A stretch of DNA of 64,000 nt from Chloroflexota bacterium (lineage in GTDB: Bacteria; Chloroflexota; Dehalococcoidia; Tepidiformales; Tepidiformaceae): NCBI GenBank assembly GCA_016234445.1, contig JACRBT010000001.1, positions 186,001 to 250,000 of the forward strand, in the 5' to 3' direction. Below the pieces are notes generated by a model. The model ran no database searches and was not told the origin of the DNA. It saw only the letters and a program-made list of their open reading frames with translations. The position numbers and the translations under genes were made by a program. The first letter of the stretch is position 1. Each line of letters begins with the position of its first letter. This document shows positions 47,745 to 59,858 of this stretch, piece after piece.

Positions 47745-47780
47745 GCGCGCTATTTCCGGTACTTGCGGCCGCGGTCGCGG
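47745..47780. repeat. 36-bp direct repeat, original uvrB 3' end (right)
   Basis: It covers the end of uvrB (stop at 47750) and is the presumed parent of the copy at 46920-46955. Confidence 0.9.
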
Positions 47781-49861
47781 CCGCCGGCCTGGGAGCGGCC
47801 GTAACGCACGGGGCCGGGGCGGCCGGCGACGGCGGCGAAGGCGGAGAGCTCCTCGCTGTCGCTCCCGACCAGCTGGCGGCGGAGCTCGACCACCTGGTCG
47901 CGGAGGGCCGCGGCCTTTTCGAATTCGAGCGCCTTCGCGGCGGCCTTCATCTGCGACTCGAGTTCCTTCACCAGGCGGAGGACCTCGTCTTTCGGCATCT
48001 CGCCGCGGGCGTCGTACTCGACCGGCGCTTCCGCGGCCATGCGGACGTGGTCTGTTATGTCGCGAATAGCCTTGATGATGCCCGCGGCTTCGATCCCGTG
48101 TTCGCGGTTGTAGGCTTCCTGGATGGCGCGGCGGCGGTAGGTCTCGTCGATCGCGTTTCGCATCGACTGGGTGACGTTGTCGGCGTACATGATGACGCGG
48201 CCTTCGATGTGGCGGGCGGCGCGGCCGATGGTCTGGACGAGCGACCTGTTCGAGCGCAGGTAGCCTTCCTTGTCCGCGTCGAGGATGCAGACCAGCGAGA
48301 CTTCCGGCAGGTCCAGCCCTTCGCGCAGGAGGTTGATGCCCACAACCACGTCGTAGACGCCGAGGCGGAGGTCACGGAGGATCTCGACCCGGTCGAGCGT
48401 CTGGACCTCGGCATGGAGGTAGTGGGTCTTGATCCCCATCTCCTGGAGGTAGTCGGCGAGGTCCTCCGCCATCTTCTTCGTCAGGGTCGTCACGAGAGAC
48501 CGCTGGCCGCGGTCGACGACGCGCCGGATCTCGTCCATCAGGTCGTCGACCTGGTTCTTCGTCGGCCGGACCTCGATTTCGGGGTCGAGGAGACCGGTCG
48601 GGCGGATGACCTGCTCCACCACCTGGGTGGAGCGCTGGACCTCGTAGTCGGCGGGGGTGGCCGAGACGAAGATGGCCTGGTTGATGTGGCGGTCGAACTC
48701 CTCGAAGGTGAGGGGGCGGTTGTCGACGGCACTGGGGAGGCGGAAACCGAACTCGACGAGGGTGTCCTTGCGGGCGCGGTCGCCGAAGAATTGGCCCTGG
48801 ACCTGGGGCAGGGTCATGTGTGATTCGTCGACGAAGAGGAGCCAGTCGTCGGGGAAATAGTCGAGGAGGCACCAGGGCGTGGAGCCGGGCTCGCGGTACT
48901 GGAGGTGGCGGGAGTAGTTTTCGATGCCGGCGCAGTAGCCGGTCTCGCGCATCGACTCGATGTCGTAGTGGGTGCGCTCTTCGAGGCGGGCCGCTTCGAG
49001 GATCTTGCCTCGGGAGCGAAGGTACTCGAGTTGCTCCTGGAGCTCGGCCTCGATGCTCTCCATGGCCTGCAGCATCTTGTCCTGCGGGGTGACGAAGTGC
49101 TTCGCCGGGAAGATGTCGATCTCGGTCTTCTCGGAGACGATCTCGCCGGTGAGGGGGTCGAGTTCGACGATGCGCTCGACTTCGTCGCCGAAGAAGTCGA
49201 TGCGGACGGCGAGTTCTTCGTAGCTGGGGAGGATGGTGAGCGAATCACCGCGGAGCCGGAACTTGCCGCGGATGACGTTCATGTCGTTGCGTTCGTACTG
49301 CATGGAGACCATTCGGCGGATGGCATCCTGGCGGGCGAAGCGTTCGCCGACCTTGAAGCTGAGGATGAACTCCTGGTAGGACTGGGGCTCGCCGAGGCCG
49401 TAAATGCAGCTGACGCTGGCGACGATGATGACGTCGCGGCGGGTGAAGAGCGCCCGGGTCGCCGCGTGGCGAAGCTTGTCGATCTCCTCGTTGATGTCCG
49501 CGTCCTTGGCGATGTAGGTGTCGGTGCGCGGGATGTAGGCCTCGGGCTGGTAGTAGTCGTAGTAGCTGACGAAGTACTCGACCGAGTTCTCGGGGAAGAA
49601 CTCCTTGAGCTCGGAGCAGAGCTGGGCGGCGAGCGTCTTGTTGTGGGCGAGGACGAGGGTCGGCCGCCCGACGCGCTTGATGACGTTCGCCATCGTGAAG
49701 GTCTTGCCGGAGCCGGTGACCCCGAGGAGCGTCTGGTAGCGGTCGCCGCGTTCGAGGCCCTCGACCAGCTTGTCGATGGCCTGGGGCTGGTCGCCGGTCG
49801 GTTCGTATTCGGCATGGAGCGTGAAGCCTGCGCGGGCGCCAGTGGGAGCGAGTGCAACCAT
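47750..49861 (-). CDS. uvrB: Excinuclease ABC subunit B
   Basis: 703 residues, normal length. UvrB is the DNA-damage-verifying helicase of nucleotide excision repair. GVTGSGKT is Walker A, and [17 protein letters not shown] the beta-hairpin region that clamps [12 protein letters not shown] is the DEAD-like box. [19 protein letters not shown] is motif VI. The C-terminal UVR domain ([15 protein letters not shown]) binds UvrC. ATG 49861 begins the conserved N-terminus; an upstream ATG at 49897 lies outside the family start. Confidence 0.96.
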
Positions 49862-49918
49862 GCGATCCAGTGTACCGGAACGGCGGTCTGCGAACACCTG
49901 TTCTGGAGAAAGTCGACC

Positions 49919-50647
49919 TCAGCCTGGCACCGGGAGGCGCAGCGAGGCCCGGTCGGCGTCGGAGGCGGGACGAACCCGGCCGTCGTCCATGAGGAGGACG
50001 CGGTGGGGGACGTCGAGGATGCGGGTGTCGTGGGTGACGATGACCATGGCGCGGGCTTCGCCGGCATCGACGGCCGTGCGCATGAGTTCGATCACCCGGT
50101 GGCCGGCGGCGGAGTCGAGGCTCGCGGTCGGTTCGTCTGCGAGGATGACGTCGGGGCGGTTGGCCAGCGCCCGGGCGACGGCGAGCCGCTGCTGTTCGCC
50201 GCCGCTGAGCTCGTTGGGGTGGATGTGGGCGCGGTCTTCGAGCGCCAGGAGTTCGAGGATGTCCATCGCCCGCAGCTTCGCCGGGCGCCCGGCCGTCCCC
50301 GCAAGGTTGAGGGCGACTTCGACGTTTTCGAGCGCATTCAGGGACGGGAGCAAGTTGAACGACTGGAAAACGAAGCCGATGTGGCGAAGGCGAAAGGCGG
50401 CGCGGCGGGCATGGCCGAGGGCGGTGATGTCTTCGCCGAGGACCACGACACGGCCCGCCGAGGGCGTCAGCAGCCCACCCGCGATCGAGAGCAACGTGGT
50501 CTTGCCGCTGCCGGAGGGGCCGACGATGGCGACGATTTCGCGTTCGGCCACCGAGAACGAGACGTCGCGGACGGCCTGCACGGCCGCCGGCCCCGACCCG
50601 AAGGTCCGGGAGACGCCCTCGACCGCGAAGGGGGCGGGAGCGGTCAT
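49919..50647 (-). CDS. ABC transporter ATP-binding protein (LolD/MacB-like)
   Basis: 242 residues. Walker A GPSGSGKTT, signature LSGGEQQR, Walker B VILADEPTAS, and H-loop VTHD are complete. VFQSFNLLPSLNALENVEVAL is the Q-loop region of the MacB/LolD type. It pairs with the FtsX-like permease upstream (4-bp overlap). Such pairs export lipoproteins, peptides or mechanically remodel the cell envelope. Confidence 0.92.
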   Translation of the reverse strand: MTAPAPFAVEGVSRTFGSGPAAVQAVRDVSFSVAEREIVAIVGPSGSGKTTLLSIAGGLLTPSAGRVVVLGEDITALGHARRAAFRLRHIGFVFQSFNLLPSLNALENVEVALNLAGTAGRPAKLRAMDILELLALEDRAHIHPNELSGGEQQRLAVARALANRPDVILADEPTASLDSAAGHRVIELMRTAVDAGEARAMVIVTHDTRILDVPHRVLLMDDGRVRPASDADRASLRLPVPG

Positions 50648-51828
50648 CGGCGGAACACCATGAGGGGGTCGACGCGGAGGATGCGGACGAGGGGGACCAT
50701 GGACCCGGCGACACTCATGCCGAGCACGGCGGCGAAGGCGCGTGTGGCCGGGAGGAGACGGACGGAGACGGCGATGTCGGGGACCACCCTCGTCACGATG
50801 GGGGCGACCGCGAGCGTGGCGAGGAACCCGGCGACGTAGCCCGCGACGGCGAGGAAGACCGCCTGCCCGCCGACGGTCTTGAAGAGGGCCGCGTTGGGCG
50901 CGCCGATGGCCTTGAGGACGCCGAAGTCGCGTAGCCGTTCGGCCGTGGTCGTGTACATCGTGAGGCCGACGATCGCCAGACCGACCAGGAAGCCAATCGT
51001 CGACATCACGTTCACGGGGCCGACGAAGAGCCGCCCGAGGAGGTCGCGGTCGTTCGTTGCCAGCTGCTTGCGGGTGAGGACGGCGAGCGCGGGGTTCGCG
51101 CCGGCAAGCGAAGCCGCGGCCGCGGACGGTTCGACGCCCGCTTCGAGCCGGATGAGCACGAACGTGATCAGATTGTCCATCCGGAGGAGTTCCTGGGCGG
51201 CGTCGAGGCGGATGAAGACGTACTTGCTGGCGATGGCGGCGGTCTCGTCGGAAAGCCCGACGACGGTAAACCGCTGCCCGAGCAGTTCGATGGGGTCTCC
51301 CGGGCGGACACCAAGCTCGGCCGCGAGGTAGCGGTCGACGACGACCTCTCCGGCGGCGGCGACCCGCCGCCCGCTCGCCAGCTTCCAGGGTCCACCGAGG
51401 GCGCCCTCGCCGGCATAGCCGATGAGGACGGAGGGGCGGGTCTTGCCGTTCGCCGCGGCGATCATGTTGAGCCGGATGATGCTGGAGCCCGCGGCCACCC
51501 CGGGGACATCCGCGAGACGCGCCGCTGTGTCTGCCGGAAGCGCGGACGAGGCGAGGGCCATGTTGGTGACGCCGGCGCTGGCGACGAAGAGGTCGGCGCC
51601 GCTGCGGTCGATGTAGGAGGTGGAGCGGGCGACGGTGCCGTCCATGATGCCCCGCAGGAGGAGGACGAGGACGACGGCAAAGGCGAGGCCACCGATGCTG
51701 ATCGCGAGGCGCACACGGTCGTAGAGGAGGGACCGCCGCGCAAGGGGCACCTGCCCGCGCCGGAAAAGGGCGGCGGTCGAACGCCAGCGCCCCCGGGAAC
51801 TTTCGCCCACTGCCGCAAGGCCGGTCAC
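50644..51828 (-). CDS. ABC transporter permease (FtsX/MacB type)
   Basis: 394 residues. One helix near residues 42-62 (AISIGGLAFAVVLVLLLRGI) is followed by a large outer MacB-like periplasmic domain (about 70-260) and three helices at the end (SMIGFLVGLAIVGLTMYT..., and two more). This four-helix topology is that of MacB/FtsX permeases. Its ATP-binding partner follows with 4-bp overlap. The cargo is unknown. Confidence 0.88.
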   Translation of the reverse strand: MTGLAAVGESSRGRWRSTAALFRRGQVPLARRSLLYDRVRLAISIGGLAFAVVLVLLLRGIMDGTVARSTSYIDRSGADLFVASAGVTNMALASSALPADTAARLADVPGVAAGSSIIRLNMIAAANGKTRPSVLIGYAGEGALGGPWKLASGRRVAAAGEVVVDRYLAAELGVRPGDPIELLGQRFTVVGLSDETAAIASKYVFIRLDAAQELLRMDNLITFVLIRLEAGVEPSAAAASLAGANPALAVLTRKQLATNDRDLLGRLFVGPVNVMSTIGFLVGLAIVGLTMYTTTAERLRDFGVLKAIGAPNAALFKTVGGQAVFLAVAGYVAGFLATLAVAPIVTRVVPDIAVSVRLLPATRAFAAVLGMSVAGSMVPLVRILRVDPLMVFRR

Positions 51829-51903
51829 ACGCTCATTTTCGCGTGTTCGCCGGGGAGCGCCACGGCCGGAAGCCCCTTCTCTCCCGGCCCAATGCCCGGA
51901 AGG

Positions 51904-52551
51904 TCAGCGGCGGCCGTTCCCGGTCAGCGTGTCGCGCAGTTCGGCGAGTGCGCGAGCCTGTCGGCCCTTGATGGCGTCGATGGAGAGCCCGAGGACGACG
52001 GCCGTCTCCTGGAGCGAAAGGCCGTGGATGAAGCGCAGGCTGATGACCTCCGCGTGCGCCTTGGAGAGGCCGGAGACGGCGCGGGCGAGGTCGAGCATGT
52101 CGGGGTCAAGGCCGCGGTCGTCGTCGGACTGGTCGAAGCCGTCGAGGGTGACGGGCGGAGGCTTTCGGAACCAGTTGCGGCGGTGGGTGTTGACGACGTT
52201 ACGGGCGATGCCGAAGAGCCAGGCACGGGCGGGGACGGTGCTGTCGTGGAGGGAAGCCGCGTGCTTCCAGGCCTCTTCGAAGACCTGCGAGGCGAGGTCC
52301 TCGGCGTCGGCCGGGTTGCCGATCCGGGAGAGGACGTACTGGTAGACGGCGTTGAGCTCGGCAGCGGCGAAGTCGCGCCAGGCAGCAGGCTCGCGCTGGC
52401 GAAGGGCATCGCGGTGGGCGGCAGGTTCGGGGGATGCGTCGTCGTCCCCGGTGGGCCCAAGGAGAGCCGCGACCACGCGGGCCCAGAGCGTCCCCCCTGA
52501 ACGCGGGGGCATGAACGGCCAGGGCAGCGCCATCGCTGCCGCGGGCGTCAT
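51904..52551 (-). CDS. ECF sigma factor (RNA polymerase sigma-70 family)
   Basis: Up to 215 residues. Region 2 reads ELNAVYQYVLSRIGNPADAEDLASQVFEEAW and region 4 LSLQETAVVLGLSIDAIKGRQARAL with the recognition helix. Regions 1.1 and 3 are absent, as in ECF sigma factors. ATG 52551 overlaps the stop of the upstream gene (ATGA); in-frame ATGs at 52533 and 52512 are alternatives. It is preceded by a protein that may be its anti-sigma factor, an order opposite to the usual one. Confidence 0.88.
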   Translation of the reverse strand: MTPAAAMALPWPFMPPRSGGTLWARVVAALLGPTGDDDASPEPAAHRDALRQREPAAWRDFAAAELNAVYQYVLSRIGNPADAEDLASQVFEEAWKHAASLHDSTVPARAWLFGIARNVVNTHRRNWFRKPPPVTLDGFDQSDDDRGLDPDMLDLARAVSGLSKAHAEVISLRFIHGLSLQETAVVLGLSIDAIKGRQARALAELRDTLTGNGRR

Positions 52552-53636
52552 TCCTGCTCCACCTTCGTCTTCACTTCTCCGTCTTCGAGTTCGGCGTGGA
52601 AGTCCAGCTTGATGCCAGAGCCGCTTTCTTCGAATTTCACCTCAATGCTCGTGCCCGACGCATTCTCGATCGTGTAGGTCCAGCCAGGATTGGCGATGAC
52701 CTGGGTCACGGTGAGCGTGTCGCCGGAGCGGAATACCCGGACCTGGCCCGCATCCGGACCGCCGGGGAGGGAGACGCTATAAAGCGTGCCGGGAATGGGT
52801 GTGGCGGTCGGGGTCGGCGACGGCGTCGGGGTTGGCGTTGAGGTCTTGGTGGGCGTTGGCGAGGGCGTCTTCGTCCGGGTGGGGGTAGCGCCGTCACCGT
52901 CGGGGGTCGAGCCGGGCGTGGGCGTGCCGGTGGCGGTCGGCAATGGGAGGCCGCCAGGGAGAGTCGTCGAAGGCGTTGCCGTCGGCGTGGCTGTAGCCGG
53001 CGGGCTGCCCGTCGAGGTTCCAGAAGGGGAACTCGGGCCGCCGCCACCGGTGCCGGACGTGCCATTCGAGCCGCCACCGGAGGGCACCGAAGAACCCGGC
53101 AGGGGCGTGGAGGAGCCGTTGGTGGTCGCCGTCGAACCTGGGGTACCCGCGTCAGTGGTGGACGTGGATGTCGCCGTCGCCGTGTTGGTCGCGTGATCGC
53201 CGGGTCCGTCCAGGCCCGGGAGGTTGGATGACGGGGTGAGGCTGATGAAGGCTGTCTCGGCGAAGCGCGCGATGCCGATGATCGCGTCGAGGGGGGAGAC
53301 ATCCGTGGCCGCGGCGGTGCCCGAGCCTACGGCCGAAAGGAGCAGGGCGCCCGCGGCGAAGCGCTGCGTGACCGCGCGAGGATAGTGCCCGAGCCCGAAC
53401 CAGCCGAGGAGCCACGCCCCCGCCCCCCGGCGCGAGCGTCCTTCGAAGGTGGCGTTGAGGCGCGCCACCATACGGAAGCGAGCGGCAGGGGCCGGGCCCG
53501 GCGGGCGAAGCTGGCGGACGCGGGCGGCGAGCCCGGCAAGTTCCCCGGCGGCGGGGTCGGCGGGGCGCGACCGCAAGCGGCCTTCGAGCAGGTCCTGGAG
53601 GAGGTCTTCGTGGTCTGGGGGCTGAGGGTTCGTCAT
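52548..53636 (-). CDS. Putative anti-sigma factor/surface protein with Ser/Thr/Pro-rich stalk
   Basis: 362 residues. The N-terminus (DHEDLLQDLLEGRLRSRPAD) and the region before the helix resemble the cytoplasmic part of Chloroflexota anti-sigma proteins. One membrane helix (about 95-112, FAAGALLLSAVGSGTAAA) is followed by a Thr/Pro/Ser/Gly-rich stalk of about 150 residues. A small C-terminal domain with IENASGTSIEVKFEESGSGI follows. No zinc-binding anti-sigma motif is seen. The stop overlaps the ECF start, suggesting tight coupling. Confidence 0.66.
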   Translation of the reverse strand: MTNPQPPDHEDLLQDLLEGRLRSRPADPAAGELAGLAARVRQLRPPGPAPAARFRMVARLNATFEGRSRRGAGAWLLGWFGLGHYPRAVTQRFAAGALLLSAVGSGTAAATDVSPLDAIIGIARFAETAFISLTPSSNLPGLDGPGDHATNTATATSTSTTDAGTPGSTATTNGSSTPLPGSSVPSGGGSNGTSGTGGGGPSSPSGTSTGSPPATATPTATPSTTLPGGLPLPTATGTPTPGSTPDGDGATPTRTKTPSPTPTKTSTPTPTPSPTPTATPIPGTLYSVSLPGGPDAGQVRVFRSGDTLTVTQVIANPGWTYTIENASGTSIEVKFEESGSGIKLDFHAELEDGEVKTKVEQE

Positions 53637-53836: not shown

Positions 53837-55363
53837 TTACCACCAGCGGCAACCGTCGTCGGCCTCGTCGGTCAGGAGATCCCCGTCGTTGTCCCTCCCG
53901 TCGTTGCAGGTGGTTTTCCCGTAGCCGGCGTCGTAACGCCAGTGCTCGGGCGTGCTGTCGGCGTCGAACGGGTCGGACCCGTATTCCATCTCGATTGGGT
54001 CGCTCACGCCATCCGTGTCGCTCGAAATCGGCTTGCCTCCCGGCGTCGGCGTACCGAGGGTAGGCTGGGGCGGGTGCGTCGCCGTGGGGGTCACGGTGGG
54101 GGTGGGAGTGACAGTTGCCGTGGGAGTTGGCGTGCGCGTTGGGGTGCGGGTCGGTGTCGCCGTTGGCGTTCCGGGGCCGGTTGTCGGCGTGGTGGTCGCC
54201 GTGGCCGTGGGGGTGCCGGGACCGGGCGTCGGCGTGGCGGTTGCGGGAGTGGGCGCGGACGTTGCGGAGGCGGTGGCCGTCGAGGACGGCGTCACCGTCG
54301 CCTGGGGAGTTTGCGAAGGCTGCGCGGTGGCCGGCTTCGCCGTGGCAGTGGAGGTCGCGGTCGCAGGGGCCGCGGCCAACACGGACCCGTCGTCGCCGGT
54401 GAACCCGTCGAGAGCGCCTGAGACTTCGGGCCAGAACGCGGAAGCGACGAGCGTCGCCGCCGCGACGGCAGTCACGGCCGCAGACGCGGCCGCCGCAGCC
54501 CCGCCACCGGTGGCCGCCGAGTCGCCCCGGGAGATCGGCTTCGCGGCGTAACGGGTGAGACGGACAAAGGCCGGCCGTCGCTTCCTCCGGCGGCGGTCGA
54601 AGACGGCGGCGACAGTCGTGCGGGCCATCATCGCCAGCCCCGAGAAGGCCATGGCGCAGAAAACGGCGAGCATCGCGAGCATGGGCGTGAAACTGCCGCG
54701 GTCGATGGCGCGCCAGACCGAGTAGCCCATGCCGAAGGCCGCGAGAGCCGCCACCCCGACCGAGATGGCGCCGAGGGCCACCCAGAGAAGCGTGTCGCCA
54801 GTCCGCCAGCCGGTTCGCGCGACGGAGGCCATGCGGCTGCCGCTGCCAAGATCGGCGGGAGCGACGGCGGCAAGTTCGCCTTCGGAGACGCGGTCAAGAA
54901 AGAGTGGAGGGCGGGGACCGGGGACAGCGGGATCGGCTGCGCTGACTTTGCGGCGCCGGCGTGCCCCCAACCGGGCAAGCGCCTTCCGGCCGAGGGGGTG
55001 ACGGCGGAGGAGAGCCAGCCCCTGCCCGAAGACGGTGAGCCCGGCAATGACGAGCAGGGCGAGCATGGCAACGTCCGCGGCCGAGAAGCCGCCGTCCCCC
55101 GCGAGCGACCCGGCGGTGCCGCGCGCGAGCCCGAGGAGCATCACCGCGGCGAGCGCGAAGAGGCATAGCGGGAGCAGCGTGACCAGGAGGAGCCGGGCGG
55201 CCCGCCGCAGCCACGGGGGCCGGGTCTGGGGCGGCGGGCCTGGCGGCAGGTCTAGCGGCCGGGGTTCGTAGGCGGCGGAGGCGCGGACGAGCCGCTGGCT
55301 CGACACCTGGTCAAGCAGCGGCGCCCCGTGGTCATCGCCGGCAGCGTCGCGCCGTTCAGCCAT
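53837..55363 (-). CDS. Multi-pass membrane protein with Thr/Pro-rich stalk and Ca-binding-like tail
   Basis: 508 residues. About five membrane helices (near 57-80, 97-117, 185-210, 225-250 and 290-315), a Thr/Ala/Pro stalk (about 340-435) and a tail of about 70 residues. The tail has DTDGVSDPIEMEYGSDPFDADS and NDGRDNDGDLLTDEADDGC, which resemble thrombospondin type 3/dockerin-like calcium loops. It starts 12 bp after the stop of the SKSN-repeat protein, so it belongs to that operon. It may anchor the repeat protein or its product outside. Function unknown. Confidence 0.72.
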   Translation of the reverse strand: MAERRDAAGDDHGAPLLDQVSSQRLVRASAAYEPRPLDLPPGPPPQTRPPWLRRAARLLLVTLLPLCLFALAAVMLLGLARGTAGSLAGDGGFSAADVAMLALLVIAGLTVFGQGLALLRRHPLGRKALARLGARRRRKVSAADPAVPGPRPPLFLDRVSEGELAAVAPADLGSGSRMASVARTGWRTGDTLLWVALGAISVGVAALAAFGMGYSVWRAIDRGSFTPMLAMLAVFCAMAFSGLAMMARTTVAAVFDRRRRKRRPAFVRLTRYAAKPISRGDSAATGGGAAAAASAAVTAVAAATLVASAFWPEVSGALDGFTGDDGSVLAAAPATATSTATAKPATAQPSQTPQATVTPSSTATASATSAPTPATATPTPGPGTPTATATTTPTTGPGTPTATPTRTPTRTPTPTATVTPTPTVTPTATHPPQPTLGTPTPGGKPISSDTDGVSDPIEMEYGSDPFDADSTPEHWRYDAGYGKTTCNDGRDNDGDLLTDEADDGCRWW

Positions 55364-55375
55364 CGCTTCCCGGGG

Positions 55376-57304
55376 TCAAGGTTCGAGCGCGCCCTGGACG
55401 TCGAAATCGTCCGCGTCGCTGTCGGCGTCGAGGTCGAGGTCACCGGTGACAGCGGCGAGGTCGAAGTCCGGGTCCCCGGTGATGGCCACGGCCCCCGGCT
55501 CATCGACGGCGGAGAGGTCGAGGAGGGTGGAGGGTCCGTCGTCGTCATCATCCGGGGCGGCCGACTCGCGGAAGTTCGCCGGCAGCCATTGCTTCTGTTT
55601 CCCGGCGGCCAGGCCCGCAGCCTCCAGATCGGGGGCGTCATCGACATTGTTGGTTTCGGGAAAGACGCGGGCGGCCCCAGCGGCCGCCCCGGCGCCGGTG
55701 GCGACCCCCTGGCGGGCCTGCTGGACGGTGTGGGTCACTTCATGGCCGAGGGCCGCGCCGGCAGGGGGTGCATCGCCGACTGCGATCCCGTCGCCGTCGC
55801 TGTCGGGGCCGGCCGTCCGCAGGTTCTTGATGTTCGAGTGGGAGGTGTTGATCGCGGCCTCGGGCGGGCCGTCGTCCGCGTCGCCCCCGCCAGCCGTCCG
55901 TTCAGAGGTGTTCGACTTGCTGCCCTTCACCGTCGTCGCGAAGGGGGCTTCCGGGCCGCCAGGGTCGCCGTCGGGGTCAGCCGTTACGTTCTTGATGTTG
56001 GACTTGGTGTTGTTGATCGCCGCCTCGGGTGAGTCGTCCTGCCCGGGGTCTGCCATCCGCTGGTCCTTGAGGTCGCGCGGCGGCCTTTCGGGGGCGGCCT
56101 TCGCGGCGGCCATCCCGGCGCCCCCGCCCTCGGCGTCATCCCCGCCACCGAGCCGTTCGGAGCTGTTCGACTTACTGCTCTTCACCGTGGTCGCGAAGGT
56201 GGCTTCGGGTCCGCCAGCATCGCCGTCGGGGTCAGCCGTCACGTTTTTGATGTTGGACTTGGTGTTGTTGATCGCCGCCTCGGGGGAGTCTTCCTGCCCG
56301 GGGTCTGCGACCCGCTGGTCCTTGAGGTCGCGGGGAGGCTTTTCGGGCGCGGCCTTGGCGGCGGCCATCCCACCGCCACCGCCCCCACCGCCGCCATCGT
56401 CGCCGGAATCCTGTGCCTCGCGGTTGTTCGTGATGTTGGACTTGGACTTGACGATCGTGCCTTCGGCGGCATCCGGAGCGCCGTCGTCCCCGGAGTCGGC
56501 CATGCGATTGGGAACCTCGACCTTCGAAGGCTCCTTGGTTGCGATGCGATCGCCGAAGTCGCGATTTGGGGTCTGGCGCTCGATCGTCGTGTTGGTGGAG
56601 ATGCGGCCCGTTTCCATGCCATCATCGGCGCCATCGGGCTGATCATTATCCCCGCCGCCAAGGCGGTCCTGGGAGTTGGACTTGCTGGACTTCACGGAGG
56701 TAGCGAGCGCTGATTCGCCACCGGGGAGGCCGGACGAGCCACCCTCTCCCCCCGACGCCACGCGGTCGATGTTCGACTTCGACAGGTTGAGGTTCGACGT
56801 CATCGCGGCGGGGCCACCGGGCGAATCGCCGTCGTCGCCGGGCCCGGAAGCGCGATAGACGTTGGACTTCGACGAGTTCAGGTTGATGGCCCTGGCCGCG
56901 GGATCGTCGGGGGATTCGCCGCCGTCGGGGCCTGCGGTTCGATAGATGTTGGACTTCGACGAGTTCAGGTTAGTCGCCCTGGCCGCTGGGTCATCGGGGG
57001 ATCCGCCGCCGTCGGGGCCTGCCGTTCGATAGATGTTCGAGCGCGACGAGTTGAGGTTCGCCGCGATTGCGGAAGGTCCGGAGCCTTCCTCCGCGGCAGG
57101 CGAGTCCGCTTCCGCGTCGCCCGCCGGCGCGCCAGCGCGGAAGGTGTTCGACTTCGAATTGTTGATCGTGCCCTCGGCCGGGCTGCCGCCGCCACCGGCC
57201 GCGGCGCCGTCGCCATCGAGGTCCGCCTCGCGCTTTGCGAGTTCGGGGGACGACTTGTCCAGTGTCCTGGCGCCAAAGGCCTGGCGGAGTCTGTTGAAGG
57301 CCAT
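55376..57304 (-). CDS. SKSN-repeat protein with eCIS-core-like HEVTHTVQQ motif
   Basis: 642 residues, acidic and glycine-rich, no signal peptide seen. Twelve clear copies of a motif around Ser/Thr-Lys/Arg/His-Ser-Asn occur between about residues 45 and 490. Examples are INNSKSNTFR, LNSSKSNIYR, LNLSKSNIDR, VKSSKSNSQD, INNTKSNIKN and INTSHSNIKN. The spacer between copies is about 18-50 residues. An 80-residue block (KAAPEKPPRDLKDQ ... SERLGG) is duplicated. HEVTHTVQQ at residues 521-529 matches the core of DUF4157 (eCIS core) proteins. The last 80 residues are strongly acidic. ATG 57304 follows AGGAGGG. It is preceded, 19 bp upstream, by a methyltransferase gene. Confidence 0.72.
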   Translation of the reverse strand: MAFNRLRQAFGARTLDKSSPELAKREADLDGDGAAAGGGGSPAEGTINNSKSNTFRAGAPAGDAEADSPAAEEGSGPSAIAANLNSSRSNIYRTAGPDGGGSPDDPAARATNLNSSKSNIYRTAGPDGGESPDDPAARAINLNSSKSNVYRASGPGDDGDSPGGPAAMTSNLNLSKSNIDRVASGGEGGSSGLPGGESALATSVKSSKSNSQDRLGGGDNDQPDGADDGMETGRISTNTTIERQTPNRDFGDRIATKEPSKVEVPNRMADSGDDGAPDAAEGTIVKSKSNITNNREAQDSGDDGGGGGGGGGMAAAKAAPEKPPRDLKDQRVADPGQEDSPEAAINNTKSNIKNVTADPDGDAGGPEATFATTVKSSKSNSSERLGGGDDAEGGGAGMAAAKAAPERPPRDLKDQRMADPGQDDSPEAAINNTKSNIKNVTADPDGDPGGPEAPFATTVKGSKSNTSERTAGGGDADDGPPEAAINTSHSNIKNLRTAGPDSDGDGIAVGDAPPAGAALGHEVTHTVQQARQGVATGAGAAAGAARVFPETNNVDDAPDLEAAGLAAGKQKQWLPANFRESAAPDDDDDGPSTLLDLSAVDEPGAVAITGDPDFDLAAVTGDLDLDADSDADDFDVQGALEP

Positions 57305-57323
57305 GGGGTTCCCTCCTGTGGGT

Positions 57324-58076
57324 TTAGCGGCTCGCGGCGGGCTGCCGGAGCAGGTCCACGAACAGCGTGGAGGCCGGCCCGAACGCGGGCACAAGCGAGT
57401 CGAAGGCGGAAAGCGGAGCGGCCGCGGCGGCCGTCGCCTGGGGGTCGGATGAATTGGCGAGATGGACGACGGGGTGGTTCGCCGGGTAGTGGCGGGAAAG
57501 GTACTCAACCAGGGGCCGGTAGGCTTCCGGGCGCGGCTCGATTGGCCCCGCCGCTTCGGCCGCCGCGATGCCCGCCACCTGGAGCAGGAGCAACGGTACC
57601 GCCGGCTGGACGGGCATCTCGCGTTCGTAGAGGCGACGGGCATCGAAAACCTGGAGGCCGAACGTGCCGACGTCGAGGCCAACCTGGCAGATGAGGGAGT
57701 CGATCGGCGAGACAGCCGGGAGCACCTGGGTGGCGATCTTCCGTTCCCTCGCCTTCACCATGAGGAAGCGGTTGAGGGAGTTCGAGAGCAGGGGGTTGCC
57801 TTCCGCCAGGAGCAGCGCCGGCGGGTCTTCGGCGGCCTGGCGGAGAACCGTGTCGGCGATGTCGAGGTAGACCTCGGCGAAGGGGCGGCCGGCCGCGAAG
57901 AAGGGGGCGAGATCGGTGCTGGTGACGCGCTGGGAACGAAGGAAGCGATCGAGGTTGGGCGGCAGGCCGATGGCGAAAACGCGGGAGGCGCGGCCGAGCG
58001 CGCGCTGGGCCTCCACCGTTAGCTGGAGGGAGTCGCCCACGCCGTAGCCCGCGAGGATAAGTGCCGGTCGCGCCAC
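57324..58076 (-). CDS. Tetrapyrrole-methylase-fold SAM methyltransferase, borosin-like
   Basis: 250 residues from GTG 58076 after AGGAG. LILAGYGVGDSLQLTVEAQRA is the first SAM-fold segment. AEGNPLLSNSLNRFLMVKAR (91-110), then LPAVSPIDSLICQVGLDVGT and FDARRLYE, line up by eye with bacterial borosin peptide alpha-N-methyltransferases such as SonM. PASTLFVDLL at the end also matches. The Tyr of the usual YGHPG loop is Ala here, and an Arg four residues before the catalytic Tyr is not conserved, so the activity may be divergent. The next gene is a repeat protein, a possible substrate. Confidence 0.68.
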   Translation of the reverse strand: MARPALILAGYGVGDSLQLTVEAQRALGRASRVFAIGLPPNLDRFLRSQRVTSTDLAPFFAAGRPFAEVYLDIADTVLRQAAEDPPALLLAEGNPLLSNSLNRFLMVKARERKIATQVLPAVSPIDSLICQVGLDVGTFGLQVFDARRLYEREMPVQPAVPLLLLQVAGIAAAEAAGPIEPRPEAYRPLVEYLSRHYPANHPVVHLANSSDPQATAAAAAPLSAFDSLVPAFGPASTLFVDLLRQPAASR

Positions 58077-58132: not shown

Positions 58133-58990
58133 TCAAGGATTCGGGGGTGACAATTCGATGTTATCCAGGAGACGGGTCTGGCCGAATCGCACGACGAGCG
58201 AGAGGACGGCCGGTCCTTCAACCTTGCCGCTCACCTCGGCAAGGGTTTCGTCGTCGGCGAGACTGATGTACTCCGGCGTCCCCCGGGACTGCGTCAAGAC
58301 GATCGAGCGGACGGTTTCGCGAAGGACGGAGGCGTCGCGCTCGCCGTCCGCGAAGCGTGAACGTGCTTGGAGAAGGGCGCGGCTGAGGACGGGCGCGGCG
58401 GCGCGCTGTTCGGGCGTGAGGTAGACGTTCCGGCTGCTGAGGGCCAGCCCGTCGGGTTCGCGGACGATGTCGCAGGGGACAATTTCGACGGGCAGGTCGA
58501 GGTCGCGCGCCATCCGCCGGACGACACGGAGCTGCTGGGCGTCCTTGCGGCCGAAGTAGGCACGGTCGGGCTCGACGCCGTTGAAGAGCTTGAGGACCAC
58601 CGTCGCGACGCCGCGGAAGTGGCCGGGCCGGGCCTCGCCTTCGAGGCGGCGGGAGACGTCCTCCACCGTGACGTAGGTCTGGAAGCCGGGGGGATAGATG
58701 TCAGCGGCGACGGGCAAATAAACGGCGGCGACTCCCGCGTCTTCGAGCAGGGCGAGGTCACGAACCTCGTCACGGGGGTAGCGTTCGAAGTCTTCGCCCG
58801 GGCCGAACTGGGTCGGGTTGACGAAGATGCTCGCGACCGTGGCGTCGTTTTCGGCGACTGAGCGGCGGACGAGGGCGAGGTGGCCTTCGTGGAGGTAGCC
58901 CATGGTTGGCACAAAGCCGACGGTGCCCCCGCGGGCGCGCCGCCAGGCCCTCATCGCCGCGGGGGTCGCGAGCACCTCCACGGGCGCCAC
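58133..58990 (-). CDS. panC: Pantothenate synthetase
   Basis: 285 residues. It joins pantoate and beta-alanine with ATP. The nucleotidyltransferase HIGH-type motif is in GYLHEGHLALVRR. IFVNPTQFGPGEDF and LKLFNGVEPDRAYFGRKDAQQL are conserved. A KMSKS-like SSRNVYL segment lies near residue 185. GTG 58990 is placed 1 bp after the panB stop; GTG 58981 is a second option with a better ribosome site (GGGTGG). Confidence 0.93.
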   Translation of the reverse strand: MAPVEVLATPAAMRAWRRARGGTVGFVPTMGYLHEGHLALVRRSVAENDATVASIFVNPTQFGPGEDFERYPRDEVRDLALLEDAGVAAVYLPVAADIYPPGFQTYVTVEDVSRRLEGEARPGHFRGVATVVLKLFNGVEPDRAYFGRKDAQQLRVVRRMARDLDLPVEIVPCDIVREPDGLALSSRNVYLTPEQRAAAPVLSRALLQARSRFADGERDASVLRETVRSIVLTQSRGTPEYISLADDETLAEVSGKVEGPAVLSLVVRFGQTRLLDNIELSPPNP

Positions 58991-58991
58991 C

Positions 58992-59858
58992 CTAGAGGAC
59001 GCCGGCTGGCTGGTGGTAGCCGCCCGCCTCAAGTTCCGCCAGCGAGGCGTCGTCCATCTCGAAGGCGTGCTCGGCGGTCGGGAAGGCGCCGGAGCCGACC
59101 TCGTTGGCGTAGGCGCGGACGGCGTCGCGGATGATCGTCCCCACGTTCGCGTAGGCCTTGGCGTGGCGGAAGGGGCGGCGGTCGTCAAAGATCCCGAGGA
59201 GGTCGTGGAAGACCTGGACCTGGGCGTCGCAGGAGGGCCCGGCGCCGATGCCGATGGTGGGGATGGAGATGCGCTCGGTGACCATGCGGGCGAGCTGTTC
59301 GGGGATGGTTTCGAGGACGACTGCGAAGGCACCGGCCTCTTCGAGGGCGCGGGCGTCGTTGAGGAGCTTGGCGGCGGCGGCCGGGGTGCGGCCCTGGACG
59401 CGATGACCGCCCAGCTGGTTGACCGACTGGGGCGTCAGGCCGAGGTGGCCCATCACCGGGATGCCGCTGTCGACCATGCGGCGGACGAGCGCGGTGACGT
59501 TCGTCCCGCCTTCCAGTTTGACCGCGGTGGCGCCACCTTCCTGGAGCAGCCGGCCGGCGTTGCGGACGGCTTCGTCGGCGTTCGCCTGGTAGCTCATGAA
59601 GGGCATGTCGGCGACGACGATAGCCTTCTCGGTGGCGCGGACGACGGCGCGCGTGTGGTAGAGGACGTCGTCCATCGTGACCGGGATGGTGGATTCGTAG
59701 CCGAGGATGACGCTGCCGAGGGAGTCACCGACAAGGATGACGGGGATGCCGGCCTGCTCGACGAGGCGGGCGGTCGCGTAGTCGTAGGCGGTGAGCATGG
59801 CGAATCTGCGGCCTTCTGCCTTCCATTCGCGGAGCTTGTGGACGGAGATGCGAGCCAT
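58992..59858 (-). CDS. panB: 3-Methyl-2-oxobutanoate hydroxymethyltransferase
   Basis: 288 residues. It adds a hydroxymethyl group from 5,10-methylene-THF to ketoisovalerate. MLTAYDYATARLVEQAGIPV and LVGDSLGSVILGYEST carry metal-binding Asp. PVMGHLGLTPQSVNQLGG contains the conserved catalytic region. GAGPSCDAQVQVFHDLLG is typical. GGAGGCTAGCG precedes the ATG at 59858, 2 bp after panD's stop. Confidence 0.95.
   Translation of the reverse strand: MARISVHKLREWKAEGRRFAMLTAYDYATARLVEQAGIPVILVGDSLGSVILGYESTIPVTMDDVLYHTRAVVRATEKAIVVADMPFMSYQANADEAVRNAGRLLQEGGATAVKLEGGTNVTALVRRMVDSGIPVMGHLGLTPQSVNQLGGHRVQGRTPAAAAKLLNDARALEEAGAFAVVLETIPEQLARMVTERISIPTIGIGAGPSCDAQVQVFHDLLGIFDDRRPFRHAKAYANVGTIIRDAVRAYANEVGSGAFPTAEHAFEMDDASLAELEAGGYHQPAGVL

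Follow-up and report, generated by a model that had tools for sequence, protein, structure and literature searches.

Borosin N-methyltransferases (OphMA, dbOphMA, MroMA, SonM) share the tetrapyrrole methylase (TP-methylase) fold, methylate backbone amides and carry a signature of Tyr66, Arg72 and Tyr98 in OphMA numbering. OphMA position 72 corresponds to Arg67 of SonM, and the R67A mutant of that enzyme shows only trace activity and is essentially inactive (PMC8429565). For some types of borosin, a binding domain is reportedly not known (PMC11395268). TP-methylases are also found in YabN, together with a MazG domain. Multi-core precursors are known among RiPPs, and in precursor-enzyme pairs such as those of multi-core graspetides like the microviridins, a small variable peptide with a conserved N terminus is encoded directly upstream of a conserved enzyme. 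To our knowledge, almost no RiPPs have been characterised from Chloroflexota, and our literature search for RiPP precursors of Dehalococcoidia found nothing. Here, we describe a locus from this class, located in a 64,000-nucleotide stretch of DNA referred to below as the window, in which a methyltransferase of the borosin fold lies beside a protein carrying an array of short SKSN motifs.

A methyltransferase gene beside an SKSN-array gene

The genes of the locus all lie on the minus strand. panC (58133..59332 for the open reading frame as listed, the true start being probably internal; TIGR00018, E = 6e-94) is followed by the methyltransferase gene (57324..58076; 250 aa, GTG start), a 19-bp gap, the gene of a 642-aa protein, here called P0001 (55376..57304; ATG start preceded by AGGAGG), and the gene of a 508-aa multi-pass membrane protein whose tail is rich in Pro and Thr (53837..55363). 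uvrB is found at 47750..49897 on the same strand (TIGR00631, E = 0). After the locus and in the same orientation, the stretch 50644-53636 holds genes for an ECF sigma factor, a Pro/Thr-rich protein and a MacB/FtsX transporter.

P0001 contains 11 copies of [ST][KR]SN and one SHSN, and these 12 motifs span residues 50-491 (55832..57157, minus strand). Shuffled versions of P0001 gave a mean of 0.05 motifs and a maximum of 2, and the open reading frames confirm the layout given in the initial annotation, namely a 250-residue methyltransferase followed 19 bp later by a 642-residue protein with about twelve motifs. Alignment of the repeat units yielded the loose consensus (L/I)N-S-(S/T)-K-S-N, in which S-N is invariant. 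The protein is acidic (108 D/E vs 58 K/R), of low complexity along its whole length, disordered by composition and without a predicted transmembrane (TM) span. Codon differences between the repeat copies fall mostly at third positions, and a duplicated 85-aa block has a dN of 0.10 and a dS of 0.38, indicating that the amino acid sequence of P0001 is under selection. No Pfam, NCBIfam or PHROG family matched P0001 above threshold. A GHEVTHTVQQ stretch (55709..55756, minus strand) is similar to the last part of the metal-binding motif of eCIS_core (DUF4157), but this match (E = 0.072, 13.7 bits) remained below the gathering cut-off of 22.

Fold, active site and neighbours of the methyltransferase

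The methyltransferase matched Pfam TP_methylase with an E value of 2.2e-14, and all its PDB sequence matches below E = 0.4 were borosin enzymes, from dbOphMA (2e-13) through OphMA and MroMA to SonM (7e-8). In agreement with this, an AlphaFold model built with three sequences (pLDDT 74) aligned with OphMA and SonM at a VIA Z of ~21 over ~240 residues and with siroheme synthase and similar tetrapyrrole methylases at a Z of ~17, while no YabN-type structure was among the structural matches. The predicted fold is thus closest to that of the borosin enzymes. We next placed the enzyme in a tree containing YabN proteins, borosin-type enzymes, two other methylases of the window genome, and its own two orthologs. 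The methyltransferase and its orthologs formed a separate clade (support 98/89), outside both the YabN group (100/100) and the borosin group holding dbOphMA (93/90), the deeper order being weak. It did not group with the cobalamin-type or RsmI methylases of the window genome; a place among the cobalamin-pathway methylases, which the initial annotation had considered contrary to its proposal, was therefore not seen. The borosin likeness proposed there by eye stands as far as the closest solved relatives are concerned, both by sequence and by predicted fold, but the enzyme belongs to a divergent lineage outside the borosin clade, and its residues differ from the borosin ones at four of five active-site positions compared.

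At OphMA positions 66, 72, 76, and 98, the window enzyme has Phe60, Phe66, Tyr70, and Glu92, so that the two catalytic residues suspected earlier of being changed are indeed replaced (R72 by F66 and Y98 by E92). The two orthologs have Phe/His/Tyr/Gln and Met/Tyr/Tyr/Pro at these positions. The Y66/R72/Y98 signature is hence absent from all three proteins, and the Tyr76 equivalent is kept. In contrast, nine of the nine borosin-clade rows read Tyr/Arg/Tyr/Tyr, as does the relative from a Bradyrhizobium plasmid described below. YabN rows read Tyr/Phe/Tyr/Pro, except for two with Trp at position 72. The window enzyme therefore resembles YabN in having Phe at the R72 site and a residue other than Tyr at the Y98 site, and the YabN model matched it with an E value of 2.4e-14; it differs from YabN in its lost Tyr66, its position outside the YabN clade and its lack of a MazG domain. 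No core tail is fused to its 250 residues either. Given the altered residues and the trace activity of SonM R67A, borosin-type backbone methylation is unlikely unless the losses are compensated for. Nature has in effect run an experiment with this enzyme, keeping a borosin fold but exchanging residues on which backbone N-methylation depends, and the identity of its product would tell whether such a fold is able to place methyl groups elsewhere on a protein.

As judged by phmmer, the closest outside relative of the window enzyme is encoded on the Bradyrhizobium plasmid (L128:5944-8642). This methyltransferase stands alone and retains the borosin residues; the proteins encoded after it, of 73 and 553 aa, match no Pfam family, and the locus is a candidate split borosin locus. 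Separately, in a Chloroflexota genus of which several genomes carry the enzyme, a borosin-clade methyltransferase is accompanied by a 212-aa upstream protein harboring a leader-like PQAFLQQAGL (L041:1339-2767).

Among the 393 genomes of the class that were searched, the methyltransferase is confined to one family and to three genomes, the window genome (G000) and two relatives with orthologs of 46% (G024) and 44% (G027) identity. In G027, the gene lies beside that of a membrane protein similar to the product of 53837..55363 (27% identity, E = 3e-4, partly low complexity), with four predicted TM spans vs five in the window protein. A large acidic disordered protein is the direct neighbour of the methyltransferase in the window genome and is found one gene away in G027, where it is called P0006. 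In G024, an open acidic reading frame follows the methyltransferase gene and runs to the contig end. We read the enzyme as a divergent borosin relative whose gene forms a unit with those of an acidic disordered protein and a membrane protein. P0006 (L036:10781-12913) has 710 residues with helical repeats of ~70 aa, and a single-sequence structure model of it, examined with a borosin-binding domain in mind, reached a pLDDT of 51. The disordered proteins beside the methyltransferase in the three genomes have no significant sequence in common: a C-terminal STLxDLS motif present in both P0001 and the G027 neighbour was reached by 11% of shuffles, and an N-terminal likeness between P0001 and the G024 neighbour was reached by 27%, neither being significant.

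These neighbourhoods bear on a reading in which the methyltransferase would act on the disordered protein, or on some other partner, at side chains (for instance the lysine of SKSN, asparagines or carboxylates) and not on the backbone. The recurrence of acidic disordered proteins and the altered backbone site both argue for it. A CxxCxxCC protein of G017 (L090:7670-8458), weakly similar to the flagellin lysine methylase FliB and encoded immediately ahead of an SKSN gene, would also fit. However, the FliB match lies far below its cut-off and the three disordered proteins lack a significant common sequence, and we consider this reading unlikely.

Distribution of the SKSN motif

To follow the motif, we made a profile of 19 columns (A2) from the repeat units and ran it over 38 genomes of the family and 400 genomes of the phylum. 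Intact SKSN proteins were found in 6 of the 38 family genomes (G000, G006, G015, G017, G022, and G030), and G024 harbors a degenerate, frameshifted remnant. No SKSN protein was detected outside the family in the 400 phylum genomes, no relatives were found in viral contigs, and we found no paper on an "SKSN motif" in the literature. Outside the window genome, the SKSN proteins of G006, G015, G017 (which has two), G022, and G030 are small (81-183 aa) and contain two to about five motifs. They begin with (V/M)GEKE, two of them having extra residues ahead of the MGEKE start, and several end with NLNSSKSN or NLNSSRSN. G017 has one of its two SKSN genes inside the panC-uvrB interval, where the window gene also lies. 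In G006, the SKSN gene abuts uvrB, so that the pair it forms with an enzyme gene, described below, adjoins this site.

None of the small SKSN genes in the other family genomes has the methyltransferase next to it. The methyltransferase occurs in three genomes, only one of which has an intact SKSN protein, it is missing from five of the six genomes whose SKSN is intact, and the two are not significantly associated over the 38 genomes (Fisher p = 0.41). SKSN instead follows a second protein, here called the GxExE enzyme after one of its motifs. A search of the 38 genomes with its N-terminal domain recovered this enzyme in exactly the six genomes with intact SKSN proteins, namely G006, G015, G017, G022, G030, and the window genome, which has two copies (contigs C5 and C12). 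The association has a Fisher p of 3.6e-7, or 2.5e-6 with G024 counted as SKSN positive, although these values overstate independence because the genomes are related and some are incomplete. The same pattern is seen within one genus, in which SKSN and the enzyme are both present in G006 and G030 and both absent from G027 and G019; G024 carries the broken SKSN gene and no enzyme.

These data do not support the proposal of the initial annotation that the SKSN motifs are borosin cores tied to the methyltransferase. That annotation had also regarded a related genome with the methyltransferase and without the repeat protein as evidence against itself, and this is in part what G027 offers, since it carries the methyltransferase and no SKSN. 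A split borosin pathway in the strict sense, in which the methyltransferase would N-methylate backbone amides inside the SKSN units, would be in line with the borosin-type fold, with the adjacency of the two genes across 19 bp and with the multi-core architecture of other RiPP precursors. Nevertheless, the signature residues are gone, with a Phe at the position where SonM does not tolerate the loss of Arg, the enzyme falls outside the borosin clade, and P0001 has no recognisable borosin-binding domain, its low complexity leaving no room for a helical one. Because distribution and active site both argue against it, we rejected this pathway as the main reading and regard it as very improbable.

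A gap of 21 to 30 bp separates the SKSN peptide gene from the GxExE enzyme gene downstream of it in G006, G030, and G015. Comparison of the G006 and G030 peptides gave a dN of 0.054 and a dS of 0.225, showing that the peptide, like the array, is under selection. Their amino acid differences affect 1 of the 21 motif residues and 13 of the 115 residues elsewhere.

MGEK peptides and the GxExE enzyme

The proteins encoded by the enzyme genes of G006, G030, and G015 are 646 to 729 aa long, and no relative of their N-terminal domain was found in Pfam or the PDB. Further families of Chloroflexota also have the enzyme; no copy was found on plasmids. Among the 15 enzyme loci examined, 8 of them outside the family of the window genome, all 15 have an open reading frame starting with M..EK upstream of the enzyme gene; the test is a loose one, and 12.7% of random 900-bp stretches pass it. 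Thirteen of these frames start with MGEK, one with MEKGN (twice in tandem) and one with MSEK, and they mostly end 17 to 50 bp ahead of the enzyme gene. The start is constant and the peptide bodies vary freely (SKSN, GIAIDEEGVQR, YAPPGGGN, and others), some with repeated motifs. Loci of the module in other Chloroflexota genomes, with small disordered peptides starting MGEK[E/G], include L101:8659-11124, L102:8149-10394, L103, and L120-L127.

The arrangement is that of RiPP precursor-enzyme pairs, with a variable peptide of conserved N terminus directly upstream of a conserved enzyme, but the enzyme belongs to no RiPP family described in Pfam, NCBIfam, or the PDB by sequence search, nor did these searches assign it to any other family. 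We consider an undescribed peptide-enzyme module to be the best explanation of this pairing. If the pairing is indeed one of enzyme and substrate, it would be a so far unrecorded module of Chloroflexota whose enzyme family lies outside Pfam and NCBIfam.

The invariant residues of the enzyme (GxExE, DxxxAE, GxSTH, and RxRxxRxE) recall, by eye, the metal- and nucleotide-binding pattern of glutamine-synthetase/GCS-fold carboxylate-amine ligases, including Pup ligase. Profile searches with the enzyme, however, gave no significant match. Assignment to GCS2 was tried by family search and hhalign and gave no convincing link; with one GCS2-like protein, only a short GIEHE stretch aligned, at an hhalign probability of 8 to 13%.

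Since SKSN tracks the GxExE enzyme and an MGEK-type frame lies upstream of the enzyme in all 15 loci, we read P0001 as an expanded array of the motif of this module, an explanation that we favour while granting it slightly less than an even chance. The SKSN units would then most likely be sites recognised or modified by the GxExE enzyme family, and the array a substrate with many such sites. Carboxylate-amine ligation is a possible activity of the enzyme, with Lys, Asn, or Ser of SKSN as its target, and the methyltransferase, if it acts on the array at all, would be an additional tailoring enzyme and not a borosin backbone N-methylase. In the simplest history, a small SKSN peptide gene at the panC-uvrB site would have expanded into the 12-unit array and been joined by the methyltransferase. 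This history is weakened by the array protein itself, which starts with MAFNRLRQ and not with MGEK and whose gene is not beside a GxExE enzyme gene, and by the two enzymes of the window genome, whose neighbouring peptides contain no SKSN.

Most of the enzymes have a single membrane span and a Pro/Thr-rich tail, as well as RxGK motifs in a linker. Such membrane-anchored partners, together with the membrane protein encoded next to P0001, would suit another reading, in which the disordered P0001 has a structural or scaffolding role as a multivalent binding partner of a membrane complex, SKSN serving for docking without ever undergoing modification and the methyltransferase being an unrelated neighbour. 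The acidic and repetitive nature of P0001 and the unlinked distributions of methyltransferase and SKSN are consistent with this. Yet small, variable peptides with a fixed N terminus, tightly paired with one enzyme-like protein, look more like a substrate and its enzyme, and a pure scaffold strikes us as quite improbable.

Extending the favoured reading of P0001 as an expanded array to the phylum, we tentatively suggest, as a speculative possibility, that Chloroflexota harbor a new kind of modification or conjugation system. In such a system, hypervariable disordered peptides with an MGEK start, each encoded beside a usually membrane-anchored GxExE enzyme, would be modified or ligated at repeated motifs such as SKSN, and the window genome would have built a 12-site polymer and brought in a methyltransferase of the borosin fold whose active site has been rebuilt.

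The number of RxGK motifs in the linker before the membrane span ranges from one to three in the enzymes of L087, L088, L089, L100-L103, and L120, and these motifs are possible sites of self-modification or docking.
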